A stretch of 64,000 nt of DNA from Trachythela sp. YZ-2020 (taxonomy: Eukaryota > Cnidaria > Anthozoa > Malacalcyonacea > Clavulariidae), in assembly GCA_016169945.1 (NCBI GenBank), contig JADLSH010000373.1, forward strand, positions 1,984,001 to 2,048,000. Reading direction: 5' to 3'. Below, in pieces: positions 3,441 to 40,803 of this stretch; the first letter of the stretch is position 1; each line of letters begins with the position of its first letter. Below the pieces are notes generated by a model, which had not been told where the DNA came from, did not search any database, and worked only from the letters and a program-made list of their open reading frames with translations. The position numbers and the translations under genes are program-made.

Positions 3441-5745
3441 CTCATTATTTCTTGCTCTAGATCAATCTTTAGTACATCCTCATTGCCAATGTAGTAACTT
3501 AGGTACTAGTATAATATATTAGTTGGTCTTAGGAAGACATGCTCTTCGCTTAACAAAATATCATCCAATTTACATGCATAACTAATGTTTTACATAATTA
3601 GTAATAACAGTTATGATTGGTTGTTACATAATAGAACAACAAAATGGTGATTTGAAACTACAAGATATAAAATCAATGATTATTCTTAGAAATTGTTTAA
3701 ACACATCTGCCATGAAAGATGAACTGGAAATGTTGATTTATGTTCTTTCACATTATGGCCTAGTTCTTTACAACTAAGAATAGGAGACTCTGTGAGGCGA
3801 AGTGTCACTTTAGATTGTTTACATGGTGTAGATGTTTGTCATTCTAGATAAATAAGTTGAATAAATGATCCAGGAACAGAGTAGGGTTTAAAACATAAAA
3901 AAAACAGTCTATTATAAAAGCCTAATTTTTCAGACACGGGTGTGAAATTTGATCAAAGTAATTATATTCCTTGCACTTTTTAATCTTTAATTTGAAGTTA
4001 AAACTTTTTTCAAGTGAATCCTGAAATATATATTCTCACCTTGACTGATGCCAGCTCGATCTTCAGCCATGTGACCAAGACCTTCTTCTGTTGTGTTTAA
4101 CGATACACCTCAGCTTGTGCCTTACCCCATGCTTTTCTATATTTGTTTTTATTCGCAAACCCAAGTATAAGTATACCCAAGTATAAATCAAGACGTATGT
4201 GCGTGATACATATAAGTTGGTACCATTGATCATCACTAAATTACCTTTCTTGCAATAATGGTAGAAGTAAATTTAAATGGCTCTATGTTGTCTCAAAAGA
4301 AAAATCTGGAATAACTAAATGTTTAATCAGCCAATTTTCACCAAACTTCACATACATATTAAACACAACATACTGGGGTTCTAAGTTCATGTTACGCACA
4401 CAATAGGGTTAGGGATTGGGTCGGGATTGGGGTTAATTAATTATGTTGTTGCAAGAGCACTTTGAGTACGATCTCCTTTGCAAAATATTTACCCCCTGGC
4501 AATGAAATTAACACCATTGGAATCCTTACAAAATAAGCTTTTTAACAGTGGGCTATTTTGCCGACTAAACATTACAGAATCAAAAATATTAAAAGTTTAG
4601 TCCCAAACATACCTCCAGTCATACTTCAGTTCAACTCAAACAATCTTTAATATCTTTTAAAATCTTTAATATCTTGAAAGACTTCTAATGGTCGAAATTT
4701 AGCTTTTTATCTGTTTCTTTTGGTTGTAAAACGTGGCATACAGAAAATATTGCATACCGCATGCCTTCGATACGGCTTTTAGAAATATTTATTTTGATTT
4801 TTTTTATTTATCAGGAATTTTCCAGCATGCACGCGCTTGTTGTAGTTTGACTATATATGGTTTGCCCACGCGCTTCAGTCCCGACAAAAGGATCTTATAT
4901 AGGGTATTGTACCCTGGGGAATTCATTCCGGCCACTTAAAAAAACATAGCAACAGTCTTTGTTTGTGTTCGGTCTTTTCCGGTTGTTTTTGTCTGAAATT
5001 CCGGTTTGACCCAAACGCTACATTTCAAATTTCGCCGTAGCATTAGTGAAGATCACACAGATTTTAAAACAGAAGTTATAATCGACCAAAGGTACTGAAT
5101 ATATAATTAGTTTACGATATAATAAATATCAGATTACAAAGGTGTTAAAACTCACGGAGTCTGTAAAACAATGTGTTTAGCGATTTGTTTGGATTTAGTC
5201 AAGAACAGGTGTGTTTGCTGAATCGTTTGGTGATATTTTCGTCCATTATGGGTGAGGGGCGCCAAAGATACAAGCGCTCAAAATCATCATCCGCTGGCGG
5301 TTGATATTCGACGCTACCGTTTAGAAAGAGTTAAGGTGGTATTTGTTACAGTTAATCAAGACAAAACCTACATAACATCAATAGTTTCATTGTAACACCT
5401 CCAAAATAAATACGATACTCTAAATTCTTGGATGCTCTTGTGTGAGCAACATTGCAATATTATCCCACAATATTGCAATTTGGATAGGCAGATTGCTCTG
5501 AGCAATTTGCAAGTGACACAAAAAAAATTGCAAGTTGAAATTCACAAAAGATTTTGGGACAAAGATTGTGGAACAACACTGCAATGTTGATCCCACAAGA
5601 TCATCCGGTTTGACTATAAAACTTGGCATCAGAATTTTCAATAGGAGACACTCTTTGCTAAGGGGATGAGATACAACCATTGAGTTGCCCTAGAATTCAG
5701 AGTATTGTGACTCACTTCATACAGTGAAAATGTTTATAAAAATAT
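3441..5745. other. No gene supported
   Basis: AT-rich sequence with only short open frames and no recognisable domain. Around 5420-5610 there are several short inverted words built on 'ttgcaatatt/aatattgcaa', possibly an old MITE, but I cannot define its ends. The outer DUF6589 copy should have its C-terminal exons and RecQ gene here if it were complete; neither is visible. Confidence 0.5.
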
Positions 5746-5774
5746 AGTGCAACCATTCATTTGAGTATAACCTT

Positions 5775-6501
5775 ACTCCAAGTGCTTTGTTCCAGCATGC
5801 CAATCTGCAATCTCACAATGAATTCCATCTAAGCATTCATCTGGGGTGCAACCATTGCTGAGTGACATACTGCTCTTTCAACTGTCAGCTGATCTCCAAC
5901 GATTGCCTGACTTGAGTATCTTCATTCTTCTCCATCGCCAACGAACGGAACATAACCGTGGAGTTCTTGCAATATTTTCTGTATGCCATTTGCATCGTTT
6001 TCACTCTCGAAAATAACCCCAAATAAATTCTGAAATAAATTAACAGTTGAAGTTAGGTGTGTTTCTCAGGTACCTTAATGTGTTGGTTATTTTGAGGCAA
6101 TTAGGGGCTATGCATTTATTCACTGAGGGCCAAGCCCATGATAAATAAATCACATATTCACAAGGTGCCTTGAATTAACCAGCTACTGACTGTATACAGT
6201 TAATATAGATAAATTATAAACTTACTGAATTTGTTGGTTGTGATGCTTCTTTGCTGTATTTGTGGTGAATGTGCTTCTCAACAACATCTTGTCCAAATTC
6301 AAGGCAGGGAATATTTTCAACCAGAATTCTCTGGACCAACGTGATGTAATTTGCTCTCTGTACTTTCGGTTCGATGTGATTAGGAATAGACTTGCCATTT
6401 TCCATTTGTTTCCATTCGTAACCCTCTCCAAACTCATCCAACTTCTTATAGAGGTGGGTTGGCGTTGTCACCAATCTTAATGGGGCTAACCTGGACATAA
6501 T
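5775..6501 (-). pseudogene. Outer DUF6589 gene: degenerate exons 2 and 3
   Basis: The minus-strand frame 6498-6214 (MSRLAPLRLVTTPTHLYKKL to HHKYSKEASQPTNS) is clearly paralogous to exon 2 of the DUF6589 gene in element B (17503-18054), but the middle hundred or so residues are missing, so it joins 'GYE' directly to 'MENGKSIPNHIE'. At 5775-6040 a second block matches exon 3 of element B (VGDQLTVERA), with a stop and a frameshift. The order 6.5 then 6.0 kb on the minus strand matches the gene in B. The N-terminal exon of this copy lies at 24.1-25.1 kb; the LINE and everything nested in it separate the two. Confidence 0.8.
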
Positions 6502-7881
6502 GGGCTGTTTAAAAATGTAAAAGTAGTAGATTAAACAAGCTGGATTGAGATTTGTTTGGGCTAAAGTTGTCTTACTGTTTCAAAAAGAAACCATATAATA
6601 ATGGGACACTCCAAAAAATATACACTCTCTCTTCATGGAGAAGATTTCTGAACTGCGAGGCAGAGAAAAATTTGATTGTGATTATAATAATATAGTAAGT
6701 GTATTATGATATCCTATGGGGGAGGTAGAGGGTTAACAGCCAATTTGTTCCATGGGGGATTTGTGGATGTTTTCTGGAATAACCCAATATAATATATAAA
6801 ATACATAAAGTATTATTTAGCATAATAATATTATGCACCTCAATAATAATAATAATCTTTATTGCACACATAAATTACATAACAAAAAAAATACAATTAG
6901 TAAAGGAAAAAAAGGAAGTTTTACAAAAGACAGTGTGCAAGATCACCTATTATAACCATAAGGGGCTAATCGAGACAGGCGATCTGCTAAAATAATACAT
7001 TTATATAACACAGAATTACGAAAAAAAAGATAGCATTACATCCACGGAAGATAAAGGTAGCACAGATCTTTATCTAAGCATGAGTTTGCTCCATATCAGT
7101 GCTTTTTTTTACTTAAATTAAAATTTATATTTTTAAATTATAGTAATCAGAGTTAGGTAACTAGCTAATATAGACTTATCAGAGATATTTGAAATTGTCT
7201 TTTAAATGCTTTATTACTTAATCATTTTAAGGATTCATCAACAGAGTTCCATGCCTTTGGACCACAGTATCTAATATTAAAGATGCCATAATTTGTTCGT
7301 ACTTTTGGCAAAGCAAAAGTAGATTTGGACGACAACCGCGTATTATAATTATGCTTATGTTCTTTAAAAAAATCAGTAAAAACAATTGGAAGAGTGTCAC
7401 AATGGTACTGATGCATAAATAGAACTGTACAAAATTGAACAATGTCAGGAAATTTCAATAAGTTAAGTTCTTTGAAAAGAGGAGAACTGTGAGTTCTGAA
7501 GGGTGAGAAAGTTATAATACGTATAGCTTTTTTTTGTAATACCATCAAAGGTTTAACGTTGGTCTTGTAAGTATTACCCCAGATTATTATTCCATCAATT
7601 AAAAATGGATAAATAATAGTAATAAATTTTAATTAATATATCCATCTTAACAAAATTGCGAAGCTTTAATAATATGCCAATACCACGGGAAATCTTTTTA
7701 GAAAGTTCATTAACATGCTCTTTCCAGTTGAGGTTAGAATCAATGATAACCCCTAGATATTTATAGCTCTTTTTTTCAACTAAATCTTTATTGTTAATGC
7801 TAAGATTAATAGTATAATCAACTGCCTTTTGAACTGGATGTGATTTAACAACATTTAACGATAACTTATTCACAGATAACC

Positions 7882-9929
7882 CAGGGGCGGATCCAGAAAT
7901 TTTCGTACGTTAGTCAAAATATCTGAAAATCCAATTTTGCGCCGCATGTGCAAAATTGGCCGAGCGCGGAAAGCACAAACATTTTTGATTTTTGAACCTC
8001 GGAAACACCATTTTGCGGCACTCTGGGAGCAGCTTCAGCCAAAAATTAACCTCATAAGATGGGACCCAATTATAGCAATTTTCAGTACCACTGACACCCA
8101 CAAATCACTCCTCAGGGAATATTAAAAGAGTAGTTCTTGCAGAAATACCACATAGTGTGTTTCTCAAAGTCCAGTATATATTTAGGCAAGAGTAGAGGCA
8201 TTTAAAACCCTTATTTCTTGGCTCAGAGACTTGTACAAAGCCAAAAGGCCTGGTACTGTTGCACTCATCACGGCCCAGATAACAGACAAAAATAACACAA
8301 TTACAATTCACACACATTGAATAGCGAGTTAGGTGCAACAGTTGCACACTAACGACTGATCATACATCTGAACATGAATAAAAATTCAATGCAGTATGAA
8401 CAGGGAGTTATTCATGATCGGCCAAAGATTGCTATTGGGGTCACCACATCTACAGTGTGTGGATATCTCCCCCTAGGGCCTAGAATAACGGAACATAATA
8501 AAATATAAAGTTATTATTAAAGAATATTAAGGACTGAACATACACATTCATATTGTCACATATCAACACATGAATAAACATAATATATCACATTAACTCA
8601 TTATTAATGAATGAGGAGTTAAGGACTGATCATACATCTGGACATGAATAAAAATTCAATGCAGTATGAACAGGGAGTTATTCATGATCGGCCAAAGATT
8701 ACTATTGGGGTCACCACATCTACAGTACTTGATCAGACATTTAAATATTTGAATCATTATATATGAAATAATATATGAAACTACGTCTGTGGCTGTGGAT
8801 TATATAAAAACATGAATTTCACAAAATAACACATGATCTATTACACATTTACACCAAGCTATCATTTAGCTGCCATGTGGTATTGCCTTTGTGTATTGCT
8901 CCATATACATTATATAAATCCAGTATAAATATAGATAATATTAAACTAATATTAGTCCACAAAAAGCATAAACAAACTTCCGATTCGCCTGGGTATTAAA
9001 CTTGGTTCGCTGTAAATCTTATCTATATTAAAAAGTATATTATTATAATGCGTCGAGTCGAAGTCTTGACCGCAATATTATGTAAATCAGTTCACCTCAT
9101 CACTTACGCGGGTCAATACTTTGTGCACAAATAAACAGTATAGGAGAATGTATTAATAATGTATAGGAGTCAAATTTAGTCAACATATAATATATTTACC
9201 TTAGGGCCGTACAACAGTTGCTCTTTCGATCTCGAACGTACTTCGGGATGTACGATTCGGCACCAAAATTTCTCCCAAGGCAAAAGCTTGTGTTGTTGAT
9301 GGCGCTCACTAGCTCTTCAACAGAACTCTTCGGTGAAGCGTCTATTCGCTTTTTTCAATCAACTATCTTGAAGATATCGCCGATCGTTTTTCGCAAATGC
9401 GGACTGTACGGTTTCGTAAATACTGGCAGACATTGGGATTTCTGGCTGTGCTACTGTGTTGAACAGTCAAAGGCTCAAAGCTGCGATCAGAAAGGCCTTC
9501 TAATACTTCTATAGTTCTATAAATATATTCAGGCTGACCAGGCTGACTCGCTTTGATCGGTCAAAATTATGCAGCCAATGAGAACTCAGATATTTTTTAA
9601 GATTGGCCAATGGCAGAGCTTATATTTGTGCCCCTGATGAGTTGCCCGGTCAGAACTCCCCGGAAAGTGGTCAACATCGCTGCTAACCAATCAAATGACC
9701 AGATTTGCCACCAAGTCGGTCAAGATTCAAGCGGAAGACCGCTGTTTTGACTGATCATCATATTGCTTTACAGTTTACAGAAATCTTTACAGGACTACAA
9801 ACTTAAATATGCTGACGCCACTGAACCCATTTGATAACTGGACCGCGATTTGAATTCGAATTAATTAACTTCGCGCAATTTTTTACCCTAGTCGCGTGAC
9901 CGGGTTGACTACCCCTGGATCCGCCCCTG
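7882..9929. mobile_element. Non-autonomous hAT-like DNA transposon
   Basis: The ends are inverted: CAGGGGCGGATCCAG at the left and CTGGATCCGCCCCTG at the right, 15 bp identical. The element is flanked by the perfect 8-bp duplication AGATAACC (7874-7881 and 9930-9937). An 8-bp target duplication and CAGGGG-type ends are typical of hAT elements. Removing it restores the LINE frame (NWLS to VNKL). No transposase-like frame is visible in its 2,048 bp, so it must have been mobilised in trans. Confidence 0.85.
8347..8728. repeat. Two direct ~110-bp repeats inside the hAT element
   Basis: Bases 8347-8457 and 8619-8728 are nearly identical, sharing GACTGATCATACATCT and CGGCCAAAGATT, and are separated by about 160 bp. 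They could be subterminal transposase-binding repeats or simply an internal duplication. Confidence 0.75.
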
Positions 9930-10069
9930 AGATAACCAGTTATGAATGTTTATTAGTTGATGATTAAAATGTTCTTCAGGAGACCTTAGGTTTTTGTGAG
10001 CATAAAATAGATTTGAATCATCGGCAAAAAGGTGAAAGTCGAGCAAATCAGATGGAGGGGGGCATTGGG

Positions 10070-10160
10070 GGGTACACCGAACCGCAATACCGCACAAAAA
10101 ATTGTCAAAAACCGAAATACCGTGTTGTAAATCAACAGAATACCGAAACGCCCGAAACCA
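10070..10160. repeat. Element A left subterminal ACCGxxATACCG words
   Basis: ACCGCAATACCGC, ACCGAAATACCG and AATACCGAAACG occur within 90 bp just inside the left end. They are in the same orientation as the words at the right end, so they are direct rather than inverted subterminal repeats. Confidence 0.65.
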
Positions 10161-11614
10161 CATTTCAAAAAGTTAGTTTATGACAATTTAACTGCAGCTA
10201 AATATAGATTGAAGTAGTAATGGGCAGTTTTAAAGAGGCTAACTACGATTTAACCATCTGACAATATTGGTCAATTCTTCCATCGAAATAATTTTTGTAA
10301 ATTACTTAAAAACAAGTACAAATTCTTGCCAAAAGGCCTTCGCTCTTTTTGCCTGTTTTGCTGAGCAATCTATTGTGTTCAGCTGGTTCAACTACCGCCG
10401 GAACACTGGCTTGACCGCTTATCTCAAATTTAATAATGATTCGTATTTGTGAGTAATGTTTACATGCAATATATAAAGAGAAATGTATTCACAGCGTACG
10501 CGCTAATTATAATTGAAATGAATTACCTTTTATTTCTTCAGTTCAATAACCGATTGTTGAAACGCGTAGCCCTTCCAAAACGAGATCGTGCACCAATTAG
10601 GAAAGTTAGAGAGCTCCCAATTTCTCCTTGCTGTTGGGACACTGGCTCAGTTTCATCTGTAGGTTCCTCTTCGTCACTGCTGGTGTCAAATTCATCCACT
10701 TAAATTCGTCCTGTGATTCTTGATCCGCTGACTCCACTGGTTCTCTCAAATCGCCTTCCGCAACTTCTACCTACATTCTCCCGAGTCTATCGTAACCGGC
10801 GCGTCTATTGTGACACACTTCCTTTGATACATGAATTCGGGTAGAGTGCCATGCTTCGCCATTGTTGTCTCTTGAGGTACTGTGCGTTGTCTAACAGCTG
10901 CTCAATAGGAGGATGCCCATTTTCGTAAAACGTCACAGTTGGCTTGGGACATTTCAACGATAGGCAAGGGCTGCATAGTGGGCACCTTTGAAAAAGGAAT
11001 GGTCTCTTCTGGTTTAGGATACCATGACTTCCTGCTCATATGATAGTATGCTGCCCACTGCATTACTCTCTTGATAGATTCTTTCATCATTAATCCAAAA
11101 GATCGGCTGTACTCCATCATAGACATGTTAGCCTGCTTAATGTGAACGGTTGAATGGCAATTATCCACGTCCAATGTCATGCAACTTAACAGGTTGGTAA
11201 CTTGGTAATCATGTTCCTTCAAGTTGTCTAACAGTCTCTGAAGACCCCACTCGATCAGGTTAACCGATGCTACAGTCTTGGCTGATTCATGTCCTTGAGG
11301 TCCATTTAGCGCTCCTGTGATTCCTGTGGTATTCCTGATGTCTGCAGTTTTTTAATCCAGTACGTATTTGCACTCGCGGACCAGTGTAAGAGCTTCTACA
11401 GATGACTTGACTGTGTAAGGCGACCCTTTGCTATGCATCATATAAGGAACCAATGGCATTTAGAAAATCAGCACACTCAGTAACCTTACTGCATAGTTTG
11501 ATGGAGTTGGTCTGAGCATCACAAAGATATACCACACTGTCAAATTCAGTGCATATTTCCATTGGTTGCTTCAAATGACAATTCTTGACTAATCCATCGA
11601 TACTACCTTCTTCC

Positions 11615-11700
11615 TAGCCTGCTTGCCGCCTGGAATTTCCAAGGGGGGATTATTCCAGTCTGCTAAACTGCAGGCATAATCGTGTTCCGTGACGTATGAC
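11615..11700 (+). repeat. Element B left terminal inverted repeat (86 bp)
   Basis: Identical, base for base, to the complement of 19455-19540; identity stops abruptly at 11701. Preceded by the 9-bp target duplication CCTTCTTCC. The RecQ start codon is 138 bp inside the repeat. Confidence 0.97.
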
Positions 11701-11838
11701 TTACAAGGATATAAGTAGCGTTCGTTGATTGGTTCATAGCCTGATTATATTTTGGGTTATGTAAGAAATGCCGTGATTGGTTCAAAATACAAAATATTAT
11801 AATTTAGCAGTGATTAAATATTTTATACTAAAAGCAAA

Positions 11839-14062
11839 ATGGCGTCGACAAAATACACTCGCTCTTTTCCAAATGATCTTTGGAATGACGCTTTAGCAAG
11901 TGTTTGTTCTGTGTTTACCATCAAAGATCTTTATTCAGAGCAAAAAGAAGCCTTGGAGAACTTTTTTGCTGGTAAACATGTGTATGTCAATCTGCCAACC
12001 GCGTTTGGAAAATCATTGATTTACCAAGCTATTCCAGTTATGGATGATTACGTCAAACGTCGAACAAAACGTAGCGGAATAATTGTCGTAATCTCGCCTT
12101 TAAAGTCTTTGATGATTGAGCAGGTCGCATTTTTAAATAGCATCGGTTTGCCGTCGGTTTCTCTAACTGATGCTGACTGTGAAAATGTAAAGATGATCCA
12201 AGATGTTATCCATGGGAAGTATTCACATGTTTATTCCTCGCCTGAATGCCTTCTTTCCATCAGCGTTTGGAGGGTATATTTGCATCTGAGCAGTTTAAAG
12301 AAAACCTTATTGGTGTTGCAATCGATGAAGCACACTGTATAAGTCAATGGTAAGTTGTAAATATATTAGCAAACATGCAAGAACTGTATGTAAATATGTT
12401 TGTAAAACAGACTTGCATATGAGTTTGAAATAGCTGTTGAAATAGTTAGGTCTTACAATGTATATATTCCCACTTGGATTATACAAACCCTAACATCCTA
12501 ATGTTGCTGAAGTAGCCTGCTTACAGGCTATATTATATTCTGGTAAAATTGTTTGCATGTAAACCAACTGAAAATAACCTAGTTTGTATTTGTGCATTTA
12601 CTGCACAGTACACTTGCACATTGCATAGTGAATGAGCAAGCCAGTGAATGATATAAAATAGAATATATACAATTCTTTGTTCTTTGTAGGGGAATGTCCA
12701 ATAGTGAACGAGGGATAAAAAAGATTCCGTTCCGGAAGTGGTATGGAAATCTTGGTGAGCTGATGTCTCTTGTTCCAAGTAACACCAATTTTGTGGTCCT
12801 CACTGCCACCGCAGGAAACGACTGATTGTATTTTTGAAAGTTTAAAGTTACCACCAAAGAAAACCCATACTGTGAAGCAAAGTCCTGATCGCCACAACCT
12901 ACGATACAGTGTCCAGTACATTGATAATAATATACCCTTGAAGATGGTTTTTGCTGGCCTCCTCAATGAAATGAATGAGAAAGGAGTGGAAGCGGACCGA
13001 ACATTGATATACTGTCAAACCCGAAAGCACTGCGGTTTATTATATCGTTTATTCGAGATACATCTGAAAGATAAATTTTACCATGGCTGTGCTAAACCCA
13101 AGAATCGAGTTGTTGAAATGTATCATGCGTCAACTCCTGATAATGTGAAAAAGCATATAATTGAAAATCTTAGTGATGAAAGTGGGCATATACGCATCTT
13201 AATCTCCACAATTGCATTCGGGATGGGTGTTAATTGTAAAAGCGTTCATCGTGTTGTACATTTTGGGCCTTCTAAAAATATGGAATGTTATGTGCAAGAG
13301 AGTGGTCGAGCCGGTCGGGATGGAAAGCCAAGTAATTGCATCATCCTTTATAATGGATTGCTAGCTAGTTATTCAACCCCTAAAATGAAGAAACTCCTCG
13401 CTAATGAAACATCAGAATGTTTGCGTCAATTGATATTTGCAGATTTCAATATAGGTAGCTCTCATTTTGACTTACCTCATCAGTGTTGTGATGTTTGTGC
13501 ACAAACATGTCACTGTGGTAACAGTGATTGTGAAAAAATACCAGTCATAAGTTGTGATCAAGATGATGATGATGACAATGATATTCCAACAATTATCCGA
13601 TCAGTGACATCAGAAGATAAGGCAACACTGAAAAGTCTTCTAATGTCATATAAAATGCAACTGATAGAGATGGAGGTGAACACTATGACCTCCTTTGTTG
13701 GCATTCGCAATGTATTTCTTGAATTTGGGGGAATGCAGATCTCCCAAGTCCTCAACACATGCCACAAACTATTCACAATTGATGACGTAATTGAGAATGT
13801 GGAAATTTGGAGGAAAAATCATGCTCTAGGAATTTTAGAAGCTATTAAACATGTTTTTAATGACATTGACATAGATTTGGATTTGTCTGCAGTTGAGGAT
13901 GAGGGATTGGACATTGACATGGATTGGGAAGAAGTCCGGGATGATTCTAGTTTTCTGAACATGGACAATTCGCAATCTATGGAGTGGAACCAAACAGACA
14001 CCTCTGCAGACACTACTTTAGTGGAAAACCGTAGTGACTTCTTCGAAGCTTTAGTACAGTAA
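11839..14062 (+). pseudogene. RecQ-type DNA helicase of element B (two frameshifts)
   Basis: Exon 1 (11839-12349) has the RecQ Q-motif (YSEQKEAL, residues 32-39), motif I as TAFGKS (residues 54-59), motif Ia (VVISPLKSL) and, after a frameshift near 12260, motif II ([12 protein letters not shown]). It ends at a good donor. Exon 2 starts near 12690 (acceptor TTTGTAG) with WGMSNSERG. Motif III (LTATA) is followed by another one-base shift near 12815. Motif IV ([12 protein letters not shown]), motif V ([14 protein letters not shown]), motif VI ([10 protein letters not shown]) and a small Cys cluster ([16 protein letters not shown]) follow. Total about 720 residues. It lacks the RQC and HRDC regions of host BLM/WRN and has an acidic C-terminus instead. 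Motif I reads TAFGKS where I would expect TGFGKS or TGSGKS. Family knowledge: 3'-5' unwinding driven by ATP. Inferred role: processing transposition intermediates. Confidence 0.88.
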
Positions 14063-15079
14063 GTACATAATTATTGACATTTCATTGGCAGAACAAGGCC
14101 GCAAATCACTGTAGGACATTGGACAATGTCCGTCTAAATTTGGCAAATGTCCGAGCAAAAGTAAGTTTGATAGGACATTGGTCCGATCATACAAAAAATG
14201 TCACTTTATACATCTCTTGCTGTGACAAAATCCGATTTCAAATTCACTCAATTTGCATTTTGCAATAAAATTTATGAGGCATTCTAGCATTTTACTTAAG
14301 TTAATGTCGCTGGAATGGCTATACATTCTTGTCTTGTGACTTATATATGTATGTATGTATGTACGTGACATATATATGTCCGACCAAAATTAAAAATGAT
14401 CGGACAAATGTCCTGTGAAGTCAAATATTTATTTGCGACCCAACTATCAAATTTTATTCACGCCAACTATTAACATTAATAGGTGCAACATTTACTTTAG
14501 GAGAGATCTAACTTGGGTATCAACACCTATTACCCACAGAAGAGGGCTTGACACAATTTGCAATTTGCCTCTAGACCATGGGTCGCCTGACCATCTTGTG
14601 GCCGGGATGTCTGATTGGTTGATTAGGCATGAGATATTTCTATTGGTTGCTTAAAAATAGCAAAGCCAAAATGACAACTGCCAAAGTCATATTTAAGGTT
14701 TTATCAAATTTAGTGTCAATCATATTTATCTCTGTCAATGCATAAACATTAACATGTGGATGGCCCATGGATTAAGCACAAATTGTGTCAAGCCTTATTC
14801 CAATAATAGAGATTGATACTCAGCAGATTGGGGGAGATCCTTCCTTAAAAATTCAGGCTGCAATAAGGCTAACTTGACCAATAAAATGCAAGAGTCTTAA
14901 AGCTATAAATGCATTGAGTTGCATTGCACCTTGAAAGGTTACTTTTGTAAATAGACTCCAGATGATATCAATCAGTATCACATGTAAAATACAGATTACT
15001 GTAGGTGTGTTGCAATTAAATTTAACATAAATTATCAGTGTGCTGCTAAAAGGTTAATGCAACCAGAGTACAAGGTTTT
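14063..15079. other. Convergent intergenic gap in element B
   Basis: About 1 kb between the two convergent stop regions. It holds a short (ATGT)n tract near 14347-14364 and an imperfect inverted repeat (listed separately), but no gene. Confidence 0.6.
14501..14840. repeat. Imperfect inverted repeat / MITE candidate
   Basis: The left arm has GAGATCTAACTTGGGTATC, GGGCTTGACACAATTTG and CCATGGGTCG; the right arm contains diverged complements in the mirrored order, ending GGGGGAGATCC. Arms are about 90 bp each with a loop of about 160 bp. No target duplication is clear. Confidence 0.5.
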
Positions 15080-17205
15080 CTACCTAGCCTTTCTATGTAG
15101 GATCATATATTGTTTATGATCATTGATCCAACTAAAGTATTTTTTCAAGTTAAAGCCAGATAATAAAGTTGGCTCAACTTTTGAGAAGCAACCATAACTT
15201 CTACCAGGTGTTATGGTCAACGCATTCTGTGATAAAAGTTCACCGATTATCTTTTCCATGTCAGCCTTTTCCGACTTGCGAACATGCTTCCCTGATCTTT
15301 TATACAACAACATTGATTCATCAAAATTGTCTGTGAGTTGCTTTGTTATCCCCAATGCATGGCAGATTCGGGCGATAGACTTTTTGCTGGCATTGGGACC
15401 TAGCTTTTTCACAACGTCCTTGAAAACTCTGTTGATAAATTCTAGGGCAAGATCTAGAGGAATGTTGCCACCCATTTTATTCTTGCGTTTGGAAAATCTG
15501 TTCCAAATAAGTTGATAGGCAGCTTTTGGACTCAAAAGCGCATTTATCTGGAAGAGCAGATAAAGGCCTTCCAAAGCATACTTATAGCTACCTTTGTCAT
15601 GATGTAGATACAATAAAGAAATTTCCAATTTCTAATAATTCTAGCACCATCACCTTCTGAAATTGCATCAAAGAAATTTAGGATGACCATACCATAATCG
15701 AGGAGAGCTTTCTGATAGTTATACATGTCATCTTGAACAATATCATCATGGATTTCAGTGAGAAGAGGTTGCTCTTGTATACTGACAGGTGGACTATGAG
15801 ACTGTTCGTGACTTTGTCTCCACTTTCCATCAGATTGGAAAGTTTTCTTGCAACCTGGAAAACGACACTTGTACCGACCGTCAAGTGTTCTATCCTTTGA
15901 ATCGAAGCTCTCTCTTCCAACTGTTTGACTGCTTTAGCAATTTTCTTGTGCTTTACTTCGTCAGGATGTACTTATCAACAATGGAAGTGGATAACTTTGT
16001 CAAATACTCTTTCTTATCTTTGTTATTCCATGTTTCTACATTGTTCAAGGTATCTGGCTCTTTTTCTAAGCTTTCCATTCCTAATTCAATCATGCCAGCA
16101 GCAACAACACGTGACTGGATTTCCAGGGTAAAGAAACGGCGGTTGGCATTAACCGCTGAATCTACATCCTTCTTAACAGAGCGACGATTGATAAGGTTTC
16201 TATCACTAAACATGGTGCATTTATCAGCTGCGGACACTGGGTTGTACAAATGGGAAAATAGCACCTGTTAGGAAAAATTTGTAGACATTAGAATACAGTA
16301 ATCCTAAAAGAATATTTTTATAGATTCAGTTATAATAATTTGTTATTTTCAGTCGTTTAACAATAAAGCCCTGGGCAAACTAGGAAACAATGTCGCGAAA
16401 ACATTGTTTCTTGCCAATGTTTCGCCATGTTTCCAAGATCGGGCAAACACTAGGAAACATTAATGAGAAACATATGGAAACATCAAATGTTGCTGAATTC
16501 GAAAACATTTTTGCTTTTTTAAGGCTTGGGAGGCTTATAGTCGGAGGTTTACGGTATTGTACTTTTTGTATTTACTGTTTCATAATTTTCATAATATTAC
16601 AAAGGTAGGGCATTTGAACGCTTAATTTCTTGTTACAGTGGGGCATGTGAAGACATTTGTTGCATAGGGGGTGGAGAATTTGATAAGTCAAATTTCAAAA
16701 AGTTTAAATTCCCAGGGTTGGCCCAGGGGAGGAGGGAGGCCATGCTGAAATTTTCGAATTGGTCAGTACATAATTGGACACTAATCATAATTCCATGCAC
16801 ATCGATATTATTTGTACACTATTATATACATACATTCAGGGCTTTGTTTCCAGCATGCCAATCGGCAATCTCACAATGCAAACCATCCATTCTCTCTTCA
16901 GGGGTGAAGCCGTTGATAAGAGTCATGTGGGCATTCACAACTCGTTCAACTGTCAGTTGATCACCAACAATTCCTTGGCTACAATACTTTCGTTCATCTC
17001 CTTCTCCAGCGTAAGGGACATATTGGTGGAGCTCCTTCAAAATCTTCTGAATTCCATCAGCATCATTCTCACTCTCAAATATTACTCCCATGAAAGTCTA
17101 AAAATTAAAACGTCAGAAAATTAAAGCATGCAATTATAACCTTTTTTGTCATATACATTATAATGCAATATATTGAACAGTATTTGCTACATACTGAGAG
17201 ACATA

Positions 17206-17465
17206 TTAACCCATTAAGCGCCAGGGCTCTCCCCTTGACGAGTAAAATCGTCTGGCGTTAGACATAGTAAAATACTCTGGCGTTAGACATAGTAAAATAC
17301 TAAAGTAGGGTGCATCAGGGTGCAATGCGACTCAATGGGTTAACTAGACACATGGGCAGATAGGCCAGTTAACTAACCCATTCAGTAGCAATGTGCCAAA
17401 ATGTGCACAACTTTATCATTTTACCCTGCCTAACACCAGATGATTTTACTGGACAAGGAGAGAGT
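17206..17465. repeat. TTAACCCATTAAG palindromic-ended dispersed repeat in a DUF6589 intron
   Basis: 17206-17344 starts TTAACCCATTAAGCGCCAG and ends CTCAATGGGTTAA, with a duplicated internal TCTGGCGTTAGACATAGT. A second copy in the opposite orientation follows at about 17376-17465. Relatives occur at 23861-24102, 45311-45385, 49428-49520 and 56530-56880. Confidence 0.75.
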
Positions 17466-18207
17466 CTTGCAGCTTAATATAGGTTGATAGACAAATACTT
17501 ACTGAATTTGTTGACTTTGCCATCTCTTTACTGTACTTATGAGGGATGTGTTTTTGGACAACATCTTTGGCAAAAGCAAGACAGCGAATATTCTCGACCA
17601 GAATCCTTTGAACAAGGGTGATATAATTGTCTCGTTGAGCTTTCTGTTCAATATAGTTGGGAATACATTTTCCGTTTTCCATCTTAAGAATACCATCCAA
17701 TGTAGGCGTTGTACTTAAATGATTTCCAGAAACTCGATTAGTTGTTGCATTTACTGTGACATAATGTTTATCAACATTTTGATGTTCTTCTGTCATGTAG
17801 TGCACGGTTTGATGGTAATCAACATTATCAATAGTAAGCTTGAATCCCGGGGATGGCTTAGGAGTAGTACTTGTTGAAACTTCCTCTTGTGAAGAATATT
17901 GCTCCTTATTAATCACCTCTGCAAACCATTTGCAATCAGTTTGGACCATTTCTTTCACTGCATTATCGTAGCCCTTTCCAAATTCTTCCAATTTCTTGTA
18001 AAGGTGTGTTGGTGAAGTCACTAATCGTAATGGGGCAAATCTGGACATAACAGGCTTTAAAAAAGAAAATATACTAAATACAGAACAATTACTAGAAACT
18101 AGGATGTGTACTCTTGGCCACATTGCAACATGGTACCTTGTCAAAATACTACCAAAATGCAGTCACAAGAGTAAAATCTCAATGCCCCTGCTTTCCCTTT
18201 CCTTCAT

Positions 18208-18366
18208 TGGCACCACCAGCTCGATAATTTGGGGGGGGGGAGAATATTCATATCTTTATGCTCTGCATTATTAATTTCTTTTGAAATTGATTGTTTTCAT
18301 GGTCTTTGAACATGAATATATGAATATTTGCCACCCCCCCCCAATTATTGAACTAGCAGTGGCACT
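18208..18366. repeat. Small inverted-repeat element (MITE) in first intron of DUF6589 gene
   Basis: The left end reads TGGCACCACCAGCTCGATAA plus a G run and AATATTCATA. The right end mirrors this with TATGAATATT, a C run and TTGAACTAGCAGTGGCA. About 160 bp, 45-bp imperfect arms. Confidence 0.65.
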
Positions 18367-19454
18367 GCTAAACCCTTCCACTGGCTATAACATACAATCT
18401 GTATACAGTATGGTAGGTCAAAATAAAAAAGTGAATAGACTTACTGCCCAGTTTGAATGGTATAAGAATATACCCAACATTAACTGCACTGCATTCATGT
18501 AGGGAGATCTGTTTCGGAGAAGAACAGACGCAGCCATCCCAACTGCAGGAATCCATGAGCACTTCTCTGTTTTCTTATTGTTGCAGCCACCAGCTACCAA
18601 GACAGAATAAAATAGTGGGGCCCTCTTTTCCAGCTCTTCATTCTCTCGCCCAAACGAAAAGTCAAGCATTTTCTGCTTTGATGGAGAACGCAAACAACTT
18701 GGGTTTTTCCTGGAACACAGATTCGAGCATTCTTTATCAATCTCTTGCAACATGAAAACAGTTAGGTGCTTTCGGATATGTTTACTTCTCCACGCTGCGT
18801 TTGCCATTTGCTTGAACGTGCCACGAACTAGCATTTTTCCCAATGACTCTAAGTCTGGATGCAAGCTTTTCTCCACTGTTTTGGAAGGCCATGCTACTTT
18901 GACATTCACATACGTTTTGACTGGTCGGGGTTCTTTAACGGGAGTTGAGTGAGCTTGTACAACAGGTTGAGCAGAGTTAGGAAAATTAGCACAAAACTCT
19001 AAATATGTCGGAGTATCGACTGTTTTTTCCAGCGCCGGCGGTGTTGTTGGTCTAACGGCGTTTGTCAAACTCGCTCGTTTCGCTGGTGGCTCAACCGCTG
19101 TTCCTTCTTGCCCTCTTGTAAGTTTCCCTTTTTGAAATAGACTGCTCAGCTCTGCTACAATGTTTTTTTCTTGAGAAATCAAGCTCTCTCTCTTTTGTAG
19201 TTTGTCCAAACACTGACGGCAAATGTATGGAGAAGAATCTAATACCTCGAACGGCAATTGCTGAATGGCTTCTTTAATGTTGAATTTAGACTTGCCGATG
19301 ATTAAATATCTTTCGTGTTTAAGTTTAATCACACGGAAACACAAAATACAACAAATATTGGCTTCTGAATATGAAACAGAATGTGCGTCCCCCATGAATA
19401 TTTATGACCGGAAATATTTTTGAGCTATTAATTTATTTAATTATGCACGAAGTT

Positions 19455-19540
19455 GTCATACGTCACGGAACACGATTATGCCTGCAGTTTAGCAGACTGG
19501 AATAATCCCCCCTTGGAAATTCCAGGCGGCAAGCAGGCTA
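19455..19540 (-). repeat. Element B right terminal inverted repeat (86 bp)
   Basis: Complement of the left repeat with no mismatch. Followed by CCTTCTTCC. The DUF6589 start codon (19395) lies 59 bp inside, so the repeat probably overlaps both promoters. Confidence 0.97.
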
Positions 19541-20581
19541 CCTTCTTCCTTGTCAGAGCCAGCAAACACATCTAACTCTCCACTCGCTTTGCGATGCCAC
19601 ACTGACGATTTCTTCTCATTTGTAAATAATACGTCTGAGCCAAACTTTGTTAGCACGCACAGTTGATTTAGGAGCCGAACAAGCAACCTGCATTCACCAT
19701 TCTCTGCGTTAATTTGTACGATTCCTTGGCAATGAGAAATTAATATGCTTCTGTCGCAAAGACACATGCTGTTGATCTTAAGCCAGTCAGGTTTGTACTG
19801 AACAATCACTTGCTCATAAACACCTTTTAGGCCGACACCGTCTTTTTCCACTTGAAAGGAAACTATAGCTTTTTTAGTATTCTCAGCAGCATAATAGCAG
19901 TTCACTTGCAACGCATAGCATGGCATAGCATAGCGTAAAAGTAGGGTTAACTGTCACGGTCCCAGAAGTGAATTGCGCCAGTAGTGACATGGTTCTCGGA
20001 ATATTTAGCCTTCAGCGTTCGGATGTACGTTAACAATCTAGCCCTGATCTCTGCGACGGTTCCAATAGATCGTACATGGAGTTTCTCCGCCTGTTCGATG
20101 ACGTCTTTTTTCTTCCTAAGTTTGGAGATGATGGTCTTGATGGAAATCGATCCTTCTATGAACTCTATAGCTTTGATAGGACCACTGTGAGAGAGGAGAA
20201 AGATGATCCCGTCAGAGCAATGAATCTCTTTGGCCTTGAGATTTCTGGCAATAGGAGAGATCTTGTCGACAGGGCTATGAAGGCGGGCCTTGAACAGAGT
20301 GGACACGGAACTCTTCACGTCGTACGACAAGAAGGCAATCCAACCATACGAAGGAATAGCAATACTTATAGGCGATGGATACATACCAAGTTGATTGTCC
20401 GATGAGTACTTGTCTAACTCGGGTATAATTGTGTGGCAGACATAATGTTATGATCCCCACAAAATCCTTAAGATCCAAAAATATCCTAAACATGTTGAGA
20501 TTCCAAAACAAGGCAAGGCATCGGGGTCCTCGAGCAAGGTTAGGGCGAAGCAAAGTATATTAAGCCAATATAAGGATAAAT

Positions 20582-20733
20582 TTACCGAATACCGTGTACT
20601 AAAATGCCAAAAAACCGCATACCGCACGACTAAATAAAACCGAAATACCGCTCTTAAAAAATTATATTACCGAAATACCGCATTAAAAATATCTGAAAAC
20701 CGTAATACCGAAAAAACCCCAATGCCCCCCTCC
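20582..20733. repeat. Element A right end with ACCGxxATACCG words
   Basis: Five or more copies of ACCG(A/C)AATACCG-like words (for example ACCGCATACCGC and ACCGAAATACCGC) precede the terminal CCCCAATGCCCCCCTCC. The density suggests binding sites or a degenerating minisatellite. Confidence 0.65.
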
Positions 20734-21214
20734 AGATGAGTTATTTAAATCATTAATATAAACTAAAAAAAGTAAGGGTCCCAAGACTGAACCTTGTGGT
20801 ACCCCACACACAATATCATTTAGGTCAGATTTTATAGTACCAACAGAAACAAACTGTTTCCTATCATCAAGATAAGAATTGAACCATTTATTTGCGATAC
20901 CTCTAATTCCATAGTGCTGCAATTTAATTATCAAAATGCTATGATCAACGGTATCAAAAGCTTTGCTAAGATCAAGGTATACACCACAAGAGAAAAGCTT
21001 TTCTTCAATGGCTTTTTTAATTTTATCAGTAATAAGTATCAGTGCTTGAGATGTGGAATGATTTTCTCGAAATCCAAACTGTCCATGAAATAAAACATCA
21101 TTTTTTTCAAAAAAATTTAAGCCTAGTATACATCGATTTTTCTAGCAATTTGCTGAATATAGAAAGTAGGGAGATTGGACAATAATTAGATAAATCTATT
21201 GTAGACCCCTTCTT

Positions 21215-21328
21215 ATATATTGGAATAACTTAAGTTTATTAGGAACAGTTCCTGACGAAAATGACCAATTATATATTGGAATAATTTAAGTTTATTAGGA
21301 ACAGTTCCTGACGAAAATGACCAATTAT
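21215..21328. repeat. Tandem duplication (~57 bp x 2) in LINE ORF2
   Basis: TATTGGAATAA...GACCAATTATA occurs twice back to back with one or two differences. It breaks the ORF2 frame between the linker and RT regions. Confidence 0.85.
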
Positions 21329-22960
21329 AAATATAGGTTAAAGGCTCAGATACATTCATTTTTATTGTCTTTAATAGATTTATTGGAATACTAAATGGCC
21401 CAGTTGATTTATCTCATTTTCAATAGCATAAAACTATTACAAAGGAATTTCTAAGGAATTTTTTATATGACAAATTAACCACTGGTATACTTTCAGCAAG
21501 CTTAGTGCCTATGTTAGTAAAATATTCATTAAATTCACTAGCAATAGCAGCAGCATCAGCAATTCTTTCATTTCCCACCTTTATTAATGTTGGGAAGGAA
21601 TAATTTACTTTTTTAAATGTTATTAGTTGCTTAATTCCCTTCCATATTTCCTTGATATTGTATTTTATTAAAAAATAATTATTGTAGTAATTTTTTTTGC
21701 TTATAAGCAATAAATGTTTTAATTTATTCCTAACCAATTTAAATTTAGATAGATAATATCCATTTTTAGACTTAGGATATGACTTGTAAAGCTTGTTTTT
21801 ATTCTTAATTGAAATCTTGAGGCCTTTTGTACTCCATGGTTTGGTTAGCAGCTTCACCTTATTTTTAGACAATTTTTTCAAAGGGACATGTTTCTCAATA
21901 ATTATATTTAGTTTATTAAAAAAAGTATTAAATGCTAAATTCGCATCATCACTATTATAAACAGTTTCCCAATTCACAGCACCAGTTTCTGTAATAAGAT
22001 CTTCTTCATTATAATGGGAATAATCTCTCACAAAGACATAATTTTTGAATATTTTAAAATTCAATTTACTTACGATAAGAAAATTAGGAAGGTGGTCGGA
22101 AATGTCAAATTATATTGCCACTAGTAGTAGAATGATCAATGGAATTAAAATAGATGTTGTCGATCAATGTAGTGGAATGATCAGTAATCCTACTGGGCTG
22201 CAAAATATGAGGTTGAAAAAAGTAAGAAATCATTGTGTTAAGAAATTCATCAGTACCACCATGAGACTCGCAATAAATTAAGGTTAAAATCTCCCATTAA
22301 TACACAATATTTCCTTTCATTTGAAATCTTTTCAATAATGGGAGTAAGATAGTTAGAGAAATTTTCAAGACAACTATGGGGATGTCGATATATCACCAAG
22401 CACACAGTGTTACATTGATTATTTGAATGAATTTCAATTGACAGACATTCAAAGTCATTAGTGGTAGTAGTGAAATCATCTCTAGCATGAAATTTAATTT
22501 TATCTTTAATAAAAAAACCAACTCCTCCAGCATTACAGAAGGTGGTTGGGAAATAAATGAATAATCTGGTATTGAAATATTAGTAAACAGATCCTTACCT
22601 TGCATTATTTTAGTTTCAGAAATACCTATAACATCGAAATCCAAATCAGATAGCAATGACATTAAGCTATCATGATTAGCAGACAGACTTCTTACATTGC
22701 AGTGTAACACAGAGAATGAAGAACAAGTTGTTACCCTGCAGATACTCTGTGCATTTTGGAACTCTGTTGTTGAGTAATATTTAAAATTAACCTCAGGCAA
22801 TAGATGATTTTCCACATCATGACCATCTAAGTTTGGTAAATTCGAAAGTCTAGAAATCAGTTCAAATTTTGGTAATTACATAGTACTTATCCTGTAGATG
22901 ATAATTTCTCCAAATCGGCAACCACATTCATAGCATGTGTAGGGCTAGTTGAATTTTTCC

Positions 22961-23600
22961 TCAAATAAATTCTGCCATTGTATGTCCATATATAGCGAAA
23001 GGCATGTTCCTTGGGCTGAGACTTTCAGAAATATATAATTTGTGTTCAGGTGACCTCAAAAAACGTAAACAACAAAGGTCGTAAACAACCTTGATAAAAC
23101 TTAGCTTTGGTGACTCTGCGTGTAAATTTGACAATGATTTTAGCAGAGGTGTTAGCTGCACTTCGATTTTCTTGCTGGTTTTCACTTCTCGATTTTGGAA
23201 GCCGGTGATATATAGATATGTCCCTCTCGTCTAGTTCGACATCCATTAAAGATCCAATTTTAACTACTAACTTGTTCAGATCTTCATCAATCTCTTGAGG
23301 TAGCCCCGAAATCACAACGCAGTCGCGTCAAGAATATTGCTCAATTTCATTTAATTCATTACTCTGTTGATCGACAATAGTTGAAAGTCGCAGAAGTTCG
23401 GCTTTGAGGTGCATGTTTTCTGAATGGACATGGGAGACCTTGTTGTCTAGTTCTTCTACCTTCTTGAAGACATCATCAAATTTTTCACTTAGGAACTGAA
23501 CAGAATCTTTAAGGCCATTAACAATCCGGAGAATTGGACTTAATTTCTCGTCTAGAATGGCTGAAATGGCTTCTGTAGTAATAGGTTTGTTTTTACTCAT
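22961..23600 (-). pseudogene. LINE ORF1, coiled-coil nucleic-acid-binding-type protein
   Basis: Two overlapping minus-strand frames, 23600-23328 (from MSKNKPITTEAISAILDEKL) and 23315-23046, read as one protein after a one-base shift near 23325. The first half is a heptad-rich coiled coil (VEELDNKVSHVHSENMHL). The second half (VISGLPQEIDEDLNKLV, then ISIYHRLPKS) resembles the RRM/C-terminal region of L1-like and CR1-like ORF1 proteins from invertebrates. Such proteins trimerise and bind the LINE RNA (family knowledge). It lies immediately 5' of ORF2. The last part is out of frame. Confidence 0.65.
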
Positions 23601-23860
23601 TATGGTGTATCACTCAAGGCAAAATAAAATTGCCTACAAAGATAAAAATGACCTTTAAAATAGCTTTTATTTCGATTTAATGTGGAGCTCATATTTTGTC
23701 TGCCATCTTGCTTTCGTGCTTCCACTTTAACTTTCATTATAGTCACACAATTGTTGCCTGCTCAAGATACATTGAGATAATTGTAAGCTACATAACTCCA
23801 AATCAACCAATGACAGTCCAATTTGTATACTGCAAAATGTCAGCTATACAACAAATTAGA

Positions 23861-24102
23861 TTAACCCATTGAATGGCAGCATTCTCCCCCTGATGAGGAA
23901 AGTTATCTGATGTCAGACAGAGTAAAATAATAAAGTAGGGCGCATCTGGATGCATTGCCACTTAAAGGGTTAACAGGGTGCACAGGCAAATAGCCTGATT
24001 AACCCATTGAGTGACAGCACTCTCCCCCTGACAAGTAAAATCATCTGGCGTTGGACATGGTAAAATAATAAAGTGGGGCGCATTGCCACTTAAGGGGGTT
24101 AA
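23861..24102. repeat. Two tandem copies of the TTAACCCATT dispersed repeat
   Basis: Copies at 23861-23973 and about 23999-24102 each begin TTAACCCATTGA and end with CACTTAA.GGGTTAA-like sequence. Both contain CTCTCCCCCTGA and the AGTAAAATCATCTGGCGTT-type core. They lie in the first intron of the outer DUF6589 copy, where element B's gene has the same repeat family in a later intron. Confidence 0.8.
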
Positions 24103-24123
24103 TTAAAATATGCATGTACTTAC

Positions 24124-25116
24124 AGCCCAATTGGAATGATATAAAAATATCCCCAACATTAGTTGCACAGCATTCATGTATTGTGATCGGTTTCTGAGCA
24201 GCACTGAAGCAGCCATTCCAACTGCTGGAATCCACGAGCTTTTATCAGTTTTATTCTTGTTGCAACTGCCTGCCACCAACACTTAATAAAACAATGGTGC
24301 TCTCTCTTCCAGCTCTTCCAGCTCTTCATTCTCTTTCTCAAATGAAAAATCCAGCATTTTCTGCTTTGAAGGTGATCTTAAACAACTAGGATTTTTCCAT
24401 GAGCAAATATTTGAGCACTACTTGTCAATTTGTTTTAGGACGATGATGGTGAGATGCTTTCTCATCTGTTTGCTTTTCCATGCTGCATTGACTATTTGTT
24501 TATAGGTACCACAGACCAGCATTTTCCTTAGTGACTCTAAGTCTGGATGCAATTGTTTTTCAACAGTTTTACTTGGCCATGATACTCTTATGTTAACATA
24601 TGTTCTAGCGGGTTGGTGTTCTTTAACAGGAGTGGAATGACTTAATGGAACAGTTGGAGGAGAACTAGCGATTAAGAAATCCAATTCACAAGAAGTTTTA
24701 CTTTTACCTTGCTGAAACGCTGGCTTAGCCTTTGATGTTGTTATTATATTTTTTGTCTTCTCAACATCTGCATTGGACATGTTCGATTGTTTTGTTACAG
24801 GTCCCTCTTCTGTCTTATCTTGCTGCCTTTTATATTTTCCTTTCTGGTAAACGCTAGTGAGCTCCGCAACAATGTTTATTTCTTGTAAAAGTAAGCTTGA
24901 TATTTTTTGTAATTTGGCCAAACACTGTCGGCAGATATGAGCGGAAGAAATATACGATACTTCGAAAGGTAATTTCTCAATGGCCTCTTTCACATTAAAT
25001 ATGGACTTCCCTAACACTAAATATATTTTGTGGGCTTTTTCAATTACACGGAAACACAAAACACACGAGAAACTGTTTAATTATTCCGAATAACAAGCAA
25101 GAACGCTTTCCGCCAT
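24124..25116 (-). pseudogene. Outer DUF6589 gene: exon 1
   Basis: Starts with MAESVLACYSE at 25116 and shows the same ZAD-like CxxC pairs as element B (VLCFRVIEKAHKIYLVLGKS; HICRQCLAKLQK), the VKEHQPARTYVNIRVSWPSK block, HPDLESLRKML and the exon-end block NAVQLMLGIF. The donor at 24124/24123 matches that of element B. In-frame stops occur just after the start, near 24420 and at 24283. Its divergence from the B copy is large at both DNA and protein level, so this is an older insertion. Its next exon is 17.6 kb away at 6.5 kb because of the nested LINE. Confidence 0.85.
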
Positions 25117-25170
25117 TAATAATTCATGACCCAAAAACAAAGCATGAAAGCAGTAATTTATGTAAGCCGT

Positions 25171-25193
25171 TCGGACATCACAGAACACGATTT
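25171..25193 (-). repeat. Remnant of the outer RecQ/DUF6589 element's terminal repeat
   Basis: CGGACATCACAGAACACGAT resembles ATACGTCACGGAACACGATT in element B's right TIR, and sits at a similar distance upstream of the DUF6589 start (about 55-80 bp). The outer part of the TIR is gone; BEL/Pao-like sequence starts immediately to the right. Confidence 0.5.
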
Positions 25194-30730: not shown

Positions 30731-32346
30731 GTGGCCAAGTCTTGTGACCATACCTTGCAAAATGAGCAAATAATGGAGCACATTTGCGTGCTACAGAATT
30801 AAAACTGTAGGGAGCCTCCTTAATGGCCTGTTTATATGGCGGTGAGTTACCTAGCTAACTGGGCTGATTTAAGTCACGGAAATATTTTCTTGGTCACAGT
30901 AGCATGCTTTAATTAACTCAACGGTGGGTTTGCACCTCACCTAGTGCGGCTATTCCTTTCCGCTTTATTTCGCCTCAGTCAGTGCTTGGTTTACCATGTG
31001 TTTGGTAAACATCATGTTTATTGCAATATAAAGTTTTTTACAAGTTGGCAACTCCTTGCACATTCCCATGGACTAGGGTTTTCTGGACGAAAATTTTAAT
31101 CTAAAGAAAAAAATAGAAATATAAACGAAAAAAATACTAAATATAAAAATGTAAAGCTGCAGCTTTCGGCTTGGCCGGCATGCAGCATGCAACATATCAT
31201 TTAGGAATTTTCTGTGAGTTGGTTTCTAAAATTTATAAAAAATAACCATAAAAAAGTTCAATTGAAACCAAGGCATTTCCTCCAAGAAAACAAGATAAAC
31301 GTCAGTGTGAACATGTTTTTTCATCTCAAACAGCATTCAATGGTACAAAAAACATGTTTTCAACAGAGTAAAGCTGCAGCCCTGCTCAAAACGTACAGTC
31401 TTAGCAAGTTTAAACAATGAAAAACCAAACAAACAAAAATTGAATAAACAGGCATACCTTTTTCATTGTGTCCAAAAATAGTAACGACTACTACCGAGTT
31501 AACAAAGCCCATTGTCCGCTGGGTGGAAATTACCAGTAACGTGATGCCATTATTGAGGCTTTGTATTCTTGTGGACTTCAGCCACTCAGTTGCCGATGAA
31601 AGTAGGAAATCGTTGAGTCTTGTTGAGTAAATCAACCCAATAGAAAACTTTGTCTATACATCCAGTTCCTTCTGTAGAGTGGTGCTAAGACGTGTGGCAA
31701 GAACAGATGCTTGTAATTCTAAGTGTGGGACAGTCAGCGGTTTAAGAGGAGGCCACTCTTGACTTACCAACAAGAAATGCACATGAGACCTCTGCAGACA
31801 CATAATCGTCGGGGTGGATCAACTCTGACTTCCAGGTTGTCCAAACTTGTAATTCGTTGCTGGTTATCTCTTGATCCCAGTCCAGTTTCAAATGCCACAA
31901 CTCTTGTGTAACACCGTCTGTATAACAGCGTTCTCAAAACTCGAGGTGTTATCAGTTGCTGTTTGTCACAGAGCATAACTTGCACAGCATGGGGAAGATT
32001 TCGCTCCAAATATATGTACTTGCATTTGATAGGTATCAACGGGCTGCCTTTATATTGCAATAAACATGTTTACCAAACACATGGTAAACCAAGCACTAAC
32101 TGAGGCGAAATAAAGCCGAAAGGAATATAGCCGCACTAGGTGAGGTGCAAACCCGCCGTTGAGTTAATTAAAGCATGCTATTGTGACCAAGAAAATATTT
32201 CCATGACTTAAATCAACCCAGTTAGCTAGGTAACTAACCGCCATATAAACAGGCCATTCAGGAGGCTCCCTACAGTTAGCATGCAAATGTGCTCTAAGGT
32301 CCATTATTTGCTCATTTTGCAAGGTATGGTCACGAGACTCGGCCAT
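30731..32346. repeat. Fold-back element with ~300-bp inverted arms
   Basis: 30731-31033 and 32048-32346 are inverted copies at roughly 90 percent identity (landmarks: GACCATACCTTGCAAAATGA, GTTACCTAGCTAACTGGG, ACCATGTGTTTGGTAAAC). The loop is about 1 kb. A second inverted pair overlaps the right side: 31443-31525 against about 32395-32525 (GTTAACAAAGCCCAT). Neither arm encodes a recognisable protein. The structure cuts off the BEL/Pao RT at its left edge. Confidence 0.8.
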
Positions 32347-39737: not shown

Positions 39738-40803
39738 CTATAAACAAATATTACCTCGATGGTGACAGCAAAGCTTATGGAAGTATTTGGGATACCTATG
39801 GTTGTTGCAATAAGTGTGAGAAATGGGAGAAGATGGACAAGCGGTCAGCAGAGTACAAGAAATGGCGCGCGTCCAAGGAGTATGAGATTTGGATTGTATT
39901 GGCCATGTGCAGAAAAGAATGGGGACACACTTGCGGGAACTTAGGAAGAAACAACCAAAGCTGAAGGATGGGAAATCAGTCAAAGGCAGCAAACACCGAC
40001 TGACAGACAAAACATTAGACAAGCTCCAAACTTATGGAAATGCCATCAGGGCTAATGTAAAGCCAGGAAAATTAACTCCACAGGAACAGAAAAAACAAAT
40101 AAAGGCTATACTGGCAGTTCTCTATCACACTTGCAAACTTCCAGATGACAAGAAGAGACACCAATACTATCCACCAGGGCCAGATAGCTGGTGCTCCTAC
40201 AGAAGAGATGGTACCTTCCAAAGGAAAGATCACCATTTGGATGCTGTTTTTTTAGATTTCCTGCTACCTGAGTTCCAGTGCCTCAGTGAGTATTCTCTGT
40301 TGCTACGCTGTCTTCCTGGGTATTCACAGAATGTGAACGAAAGCCTCAACAGCCTTGTTTGGAACCGTGCTCCTAAACACCGTTATAAAGGACCTCAAGT
40401 TGTGCAGATTGCTGTGATGTCTGCTATTCTTTATTTTAATTCTGGTGCTGCCTCAAGGCAGGATGTCATGGAAGCAGCTAACATTCCAGGTGGTGAGTTC
40501 ACTTTTGAGGGGTGTTTAGCAAAAGACAAGAAGAGGATGTCGAGCTCGGTTATAAGTGCGCAGATGAAAGAAAAGGAAAGGAGGAAAAGAAGACAAGCCA
40601 AGCTTGCAGCAAACCAAGGGGAATCATCCTATGCCAGTGGAAAGTTTAATGAAGTGGATCCACTTGACTTTGAAGCTTCATCATCATCATCATCTGATGA
40701 TGAAGACAATTATCCTTTAGCTTGGCTTGTTCATAACAACGATTCTGATGACAGTGATGATGCTCCATTAGCTCAATTGGTCAGTGGAAGTCAAAGAAAG
40801 TGA
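39738..40803 (+). pseudogene. Mutator-like transposase, C-terminal half
   Basis: LDGDSKAYGSIWDTYG (39755) contains the DGDSKAY motif that I associate with the second catalytic Asp of the arthropod/cnidarian Mutator-like transposase family (I believe Pfam PF20700). After a one-base shift, DCIGHVQKRMGTHLREL, RLTDKTLDKLQTYGNAIRAN, GPDSWCSYRRDG and NVNESLNSLVWNRAPK (probable Glu region) follow in one frame (39889-40803). The C-terminus is lysine-rich, then Ser/Asp-rich. The N-terminal half and first Asp are missing upstream of 39738. No TIRs were found. The remaining frame of 304 residues is intact. Confidence 0.75.

Follow-up and report, generated by a model that had tools for sequence, protein, structure and literature searches.

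The window considered here is a stretch of 64,000 nucleotides from the anthozoan Trachythela sp. YZ-2020 (contig JADLSH010000373.1), and all positions are counted from its first letter. Positions 11615-19540 are occupied by a transposon of 7,926 bp that is bounded by terminal inverted repeats (TIRs), flanked by a target site duplication, and that contains two genes, one for a RecQ-type helicase and the other for a protein matching the Pfam family DUF6589 (PF20231). We consider it highly likely that this element represents a recently active, low-copy family of the AcademH kind, matched to AcademH by description, in which DUF6589 is the DDE-type transposase. Its parts are the following.

11606..11614: left target site duplication CCTTCTTCC, 9 bp
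11615..11700, + strand: left TIR, 86 bp, beginning TAGCCTGC
11839..14062, + strand: RecQ-type helicase gene (exon 1, 11839-12349; exon 2, 12690-14062)
15080..19395, - strand: DUF6589 gene, transposase candidate (exons 19395-18445, 18054-17503, 17097-16834 and 16264-15080)
19455..19540, - strand: right TIR, 86 bp
19541..19549: right target site duplication CCTTCTTCC, 9 bp

An earlier note, made from the letters of this stretch, had claimed identical 86-bp inverted ends, a perfect 9-bp target duplication and a host frame that closes once the element is removed, and all three claims are borne out. The TIRs are 100% complementary and lie in inverted orientation, CCTTCTTCC occurs exactly twice in the whole window, each time abutting one end of the element, and excision of the element with one duplication restores an open frame of 195 aa across the site. 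Two or more matches of CCTTCTTCC were found in 5 of 100 shuffles, and it is therefore their placement at the ends that counts. Taken alone, the window copy could equally carry an 11-bp duplication with AGCC ends; TAGCC termini and duplications of 8-10 bp (9 bp in this copy) are settled because other genomic copies fix the ends.

These copies came from a search of the 578-Mb genome of the same organism, in which the 86-bp end has 43 matches. Twenty stretches around TIR matches were analysed, and 17 had both ends matched. Exact target duplications, varied in sequence, border every one of these 17 copies (13 of 9 bp, three of 8 bp and one of 10 bp); L021, L024 and L028, in which a single end was matched, do not enter this count, L024 being kept among the long copies. 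The 13 long copies measure ~7.8-7.9 kb and share 99.50-99.84% pairwise identity (mean 99.71%). The element is thus no one-off, as proposed, and its family is young, low-copy and recently active. Short derivatives of 669, 318, 73, 73 and 74 bp account for five of the 17; they have duplications and lack the genes. In those of 73-74 bp (L025, L026 and L027) two outer end pieces stand back to back, and a 9-bp duplication flanks each of the three elements. From this arrangement it would seem that recognition needs no more than the outer ~31-42 bp of the ends, or else that these are repair products; gap repair aborted after excision could have produced them, as could internal deletion with mobilisation in trans. 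Among five short one-arm matches, L033 has a 31-bp end piece and then TA between two CAAGTTGAA, which by eye looks like an excision remnant, L032 shows by eye a 7-bp repeat only, and L029, L030 and L031 hold a 35-37-bp transposon-end piece inside a different repeated sequence.

The duplications bear directly on the possibility of a Kolobok-type element with RecQ (KolobokH or Kolobok-1_CCri), which we regard as extremely improbable. Kolobok duplicates TTAA, in contrast to the 8-10 bp of varied sequence seen in 17/17 copies, and no Pfam family besides DUF6589 rises above its cut-off in the DUF6589 pieces of the window or in five relatives. According to the accessible part of the source, both KolobokH and Kolobok-1_CCri do carry RecQ, but KolobokH is stated to be known from fungi only (PMC9587614).

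Inside the element, the two convergent spliced genes described in the earlier note are confirmed. The RecQ gene, on the + strand, has one intron and matches DEAD (3.4e-10) and Helicase_C (3.6e-16); the DUF6589 gene, on the - strand, has four exons separated by GT-AG introns, and its later exons match PF20231. One match lies above the curated cut-off (5.9e-11 on 15083-15631) and two lie below it (0.0018 on 16834-17097, which is exon 3, and 0.14 on 15547-15933). When eight gene pieces were scanned with Pfam, no further family exceeded its cut-off. A nuclease domain was also absent from these eight pieces, the intergenic stretch being viewed only as a list of open frames, and no other transposase candidate was found among the element's open frames or the Pfam-scanned pieces. 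KDZ/Zisupton, described with 8-bp duplications in the accessible part of PMC12730594, was considered and set aside, no such domain being present in the scanned pieces.

The description of the transposon as complete holds for its structure and fails for its reading frames. In the window copy, RecQ has two frame changes (~12258-12264 and ~12800-12815), and DUF6589 is open in exons 1-3 with three frame changes in its last exon. Single long copies have from 0 to 4 of the 6 exons open, and none of the 13 is fully open. In their majority sequence, five of the six exons are open in the expected frame; RecQ exon 2 fails, and is open in L020 only, in one of three frames. One might accordingly see in the window copy a dead passenger whose movement was driven in trans, and in RecQ a gene captured from the host that plays no role, a rather unlikely explanation that would be compatible with the AcademH assignment. 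It draws on the frame changes in both genes, on the count of 0/13 open long copies and on the 669-, 318- and 73-74-bp derivatives that have duplications without the genes. The nature of these changes speaks against it. Relative to the majority sequence, the 13 long copies show 163 substitutions and 239 indel events, 168 of them single-base; 150 of the events adjoin runs of three or more, which make up 22% of bases, and 77 of 124 indel sites are present in one copy only. Given this excess of indels and their bias towards runs, assembly error fits better than age as the cause, and the frame changes of the window copy are possibly assembly errors.

The linkage of the two genes weighs further against a roleless RecQ. 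With P0080 as query, RecQ relatives in the same genome gave at least 92 matches, among which a single gene is often represented by more than one exon, and 30 RecQ loci were examined with ~1.5 kb on each side. A DUF6589 match lies beside RecQ in 26 of the 30, always in convergent orientation (26/26). As this pairing extends over wide divergence, RecQ looks like an old, kept partner of DUF6589, which upholds the regular partnership that had been proposed. The loci without a DUF6589 match are L040, L063, L064 and L065, the last being part of a longer copy (L014) that aligns with other copies over its whole length. The TIR of the window family is carried by five of the 30 (L043, L044, L046, L057 and L065), so the 30 loci are not 30 independent families. 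Both ends were recovered in two of five other families tried, and these share TAGCCT ends: the diverged family C321 has a 221-bp inverted repeat and the duplication TAAGGCTC (8 bp), and the diverged family C324 has the duplication CTGTTCAGT (9 bp). In C150, C384 and C142 no ends were resolved in the fetched stretches, outside which they may lie unless decayed, and these three families do not enter the comparison of ends.

The window RecQ was placed in a tree with 23 proteins picked from the best 120 of 4452 protein matches; it groups with 11 relatives in a clade supported at 100/100, and the remaining 12 fall outside. In Rhopilema esculentum a DUF6589 protein (P0007) and a RecQ protein (P0087) have consecutive gene ids and contigs of equal length, and the contigs bearing P0029 (DUF6589) and P0081 (RecQ) are both 44,426 long; the other nine of the 11 close RecQ relatives showed no such match with DUF6589 proteins in protein tables. 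Candidates for fused RecQ-DUF6589 proteins (~620-1970 aa) contained no PF20231 among the best 120 of the 4452 matches.

The DUF6589 protein probably functions as the transposase, judging from predicted models and conserved residues. Its closest relatives are octocoral proteins, from Paramuricea clavata (82%) and Dendronephthya gigantea. In two predicted structures of DUF6589 proteins, strand order and fold matches are like those of RNase-H transposases, and a D-D-E triad is conserved (D421, D575 and E903 in P0004 numbering). Both the choice of DUF6589 as best transposase candidate and the suggestion of an RNase H core with three acidic residues, made in the earlier note, thereby gain support, the core being found in predicted models. 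Foldseek comparison of the models with the PDB gave no match at E <= 0.001, and comparison of the sequence with solved structures yielded nothing beyond two matches to C2H2 fingers, both weak (E 0.1 and 0.48). Searches with short patterns found no relatives of the transposase in viral and prokaryotic collections and none of the P0080 RecQ in the viral collection, in which the TIR also has no exact match; this is expected because the element is an animal one.

Beyond the observed structure, termini, duplications, gene linkage and recent spread of the family, we infer a scheme for catalysis, excision and the role of RecQ. The DUF6589 protein is predicted to combine an RNase-H core bearing an all-helical insertion with a C2H2 finger and a ZAD-like zinc module at the N terminus. 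It would bind the two 86-bp ends and bring them together, excise the element and insert it into target DNA with a stagger of 9 bp, occasionally 8 or 10. For RecQ, the role we favour is to unwind DNA while the gap left by excision, or the one at the target, is being repaired; Drosophila BLM in P-element gap repair offers a parallel. Alternatively, RecQ may set the stagger at the target, a role suggested for AcademH versus AcademX in the accessible part of PMC10045372. The main value of these findings lies in a likely job for a family still listed as of unknown function: PF20231 probably gains a function, and 'unknown' proteins of corals, jellyfish and molluscs would be transposases or their relics. 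Furthermore, the young, near-identical copies provide a system for asking why an element that moves by cut-and-paste has retained a RecQ helicase of its own.

Older DUF6589 sequences lie on both sides of the element.

5680..6531, - strand: remnant of later DUF6589 exons, in order with the remnant at 24101-25192
24101..25192, - strand: remnant of exon 1 of a related DUF6589 gene, 69% DNA identity

The second of these extends for ~20 bp into a TIR-like end, on its inner side, and both may derive from a single old copy that later insertions split. In the window no second RecQ match and no second TIR pair was found, and the 'older copy' of the earlier note amounts to remnants of another DUF6589 gene, without a further whole element. 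A LINE-like reverse transcriptase (RVT_1, 20686-21141) lies between the remnants, and open frames without a Pfam family (10905-11351 and 19950-20447) flank the young element. Positions 5680-25192 may form a nest, with DUF6589 remnants outside and the LINE-like reverse transcriptase and the young element within. Elsewhere in the window, 39886-40800 has a Mutator-like transposase match (PF20700) of 26.2 bits against a cut-off of 26.5, and long imperfect inverted repeats occupy 30732-32345 and 55921-57764, with best arms of 151 and 197 nt and ~1.2-1.3 kb between the arms. An open frame at 60674-61747 contains NAB conserved region 2 (PF04905) and is probably a host gene.

How does this family compare with known systems? 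KolobokH and Kolobok-1_CCri share with it a RecQ partner, which in Kolobok-1_CCri is on the complementary strand (PMC9587614, accessible part); they differ in belonging to another transposase superfamily and in their duplications, those of the window family being 8-10 bp. The predicted RNase-H core with its helical insertion is likened to those of the P element, Hermes (hAT), ISCth4 (IS256) and RAG1, a likeness at the level of the fold only, with <=13% identity in aligned rows. To our knowledge, none of these four has a helicase gene. AcademX, which belongs to the same superfamily as AcademH, has an XPG-type nuclease. Its duplications are 3 or 4 bp and those of AcademH 9 or 10 bp, a contrast related to nuclease versus helicase in the accessible part of PMC10045372; the 8-10 bp found in 17/17 copies separate the window family from AcademX.

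AcademH comprises helicase-encoding elements from animals and fungi (Kojima 2020, Mob DNA 11:15) and is low-copy in Basidiomycota, Ascomycota and Mucoromycota (PMC10799480), as described in the parts of these sources available. The window element likewise has a helicase (DEAD and Helicase_C, with RecQ relatives), TIRs (86 bp and perfect in this copy), an animal host with octocoral proteins as closest relatives, and an RNase-H-fold DDD/E transposase in predicted models, for which Foldseek was not significant. Duplications are of 9 or 10 bp in 14/17 copies and differ in being 8 bp in three of 17, and the likeness is one of description. This last point, together with the absence of any paper naming DUF6589 in the literature searched (a single PF20231 match was irrelevant), would favour an undescribed superfamily that resembles AcademH, its DUF6589 transposase and RecQ partner not being homologous to Academ transposases. 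We judge this very unlikely, as helicase, animal host and duplication length fit the published description (PMC10045372) as far as it was available, and the element offers no other transposase candidate. Equally little credence is given to the fuller version, in which DUF6589 defines a superfamily of its own outside Academ, a convergent RecQ has been kept as partner over a long time, and as little as the outer ~31-42 bp of the ends suffices for movement. Within the literature searched, the link between DUF6589 and Academ may be unwritten. The earlier statement that the element matches no named superfamily is not supported: the window element agrees with AcademH in its helicase, its duplication length, the kingdom of its host and its predicted DDE fold, and is filed as a new family of this kind, already named in 2020.
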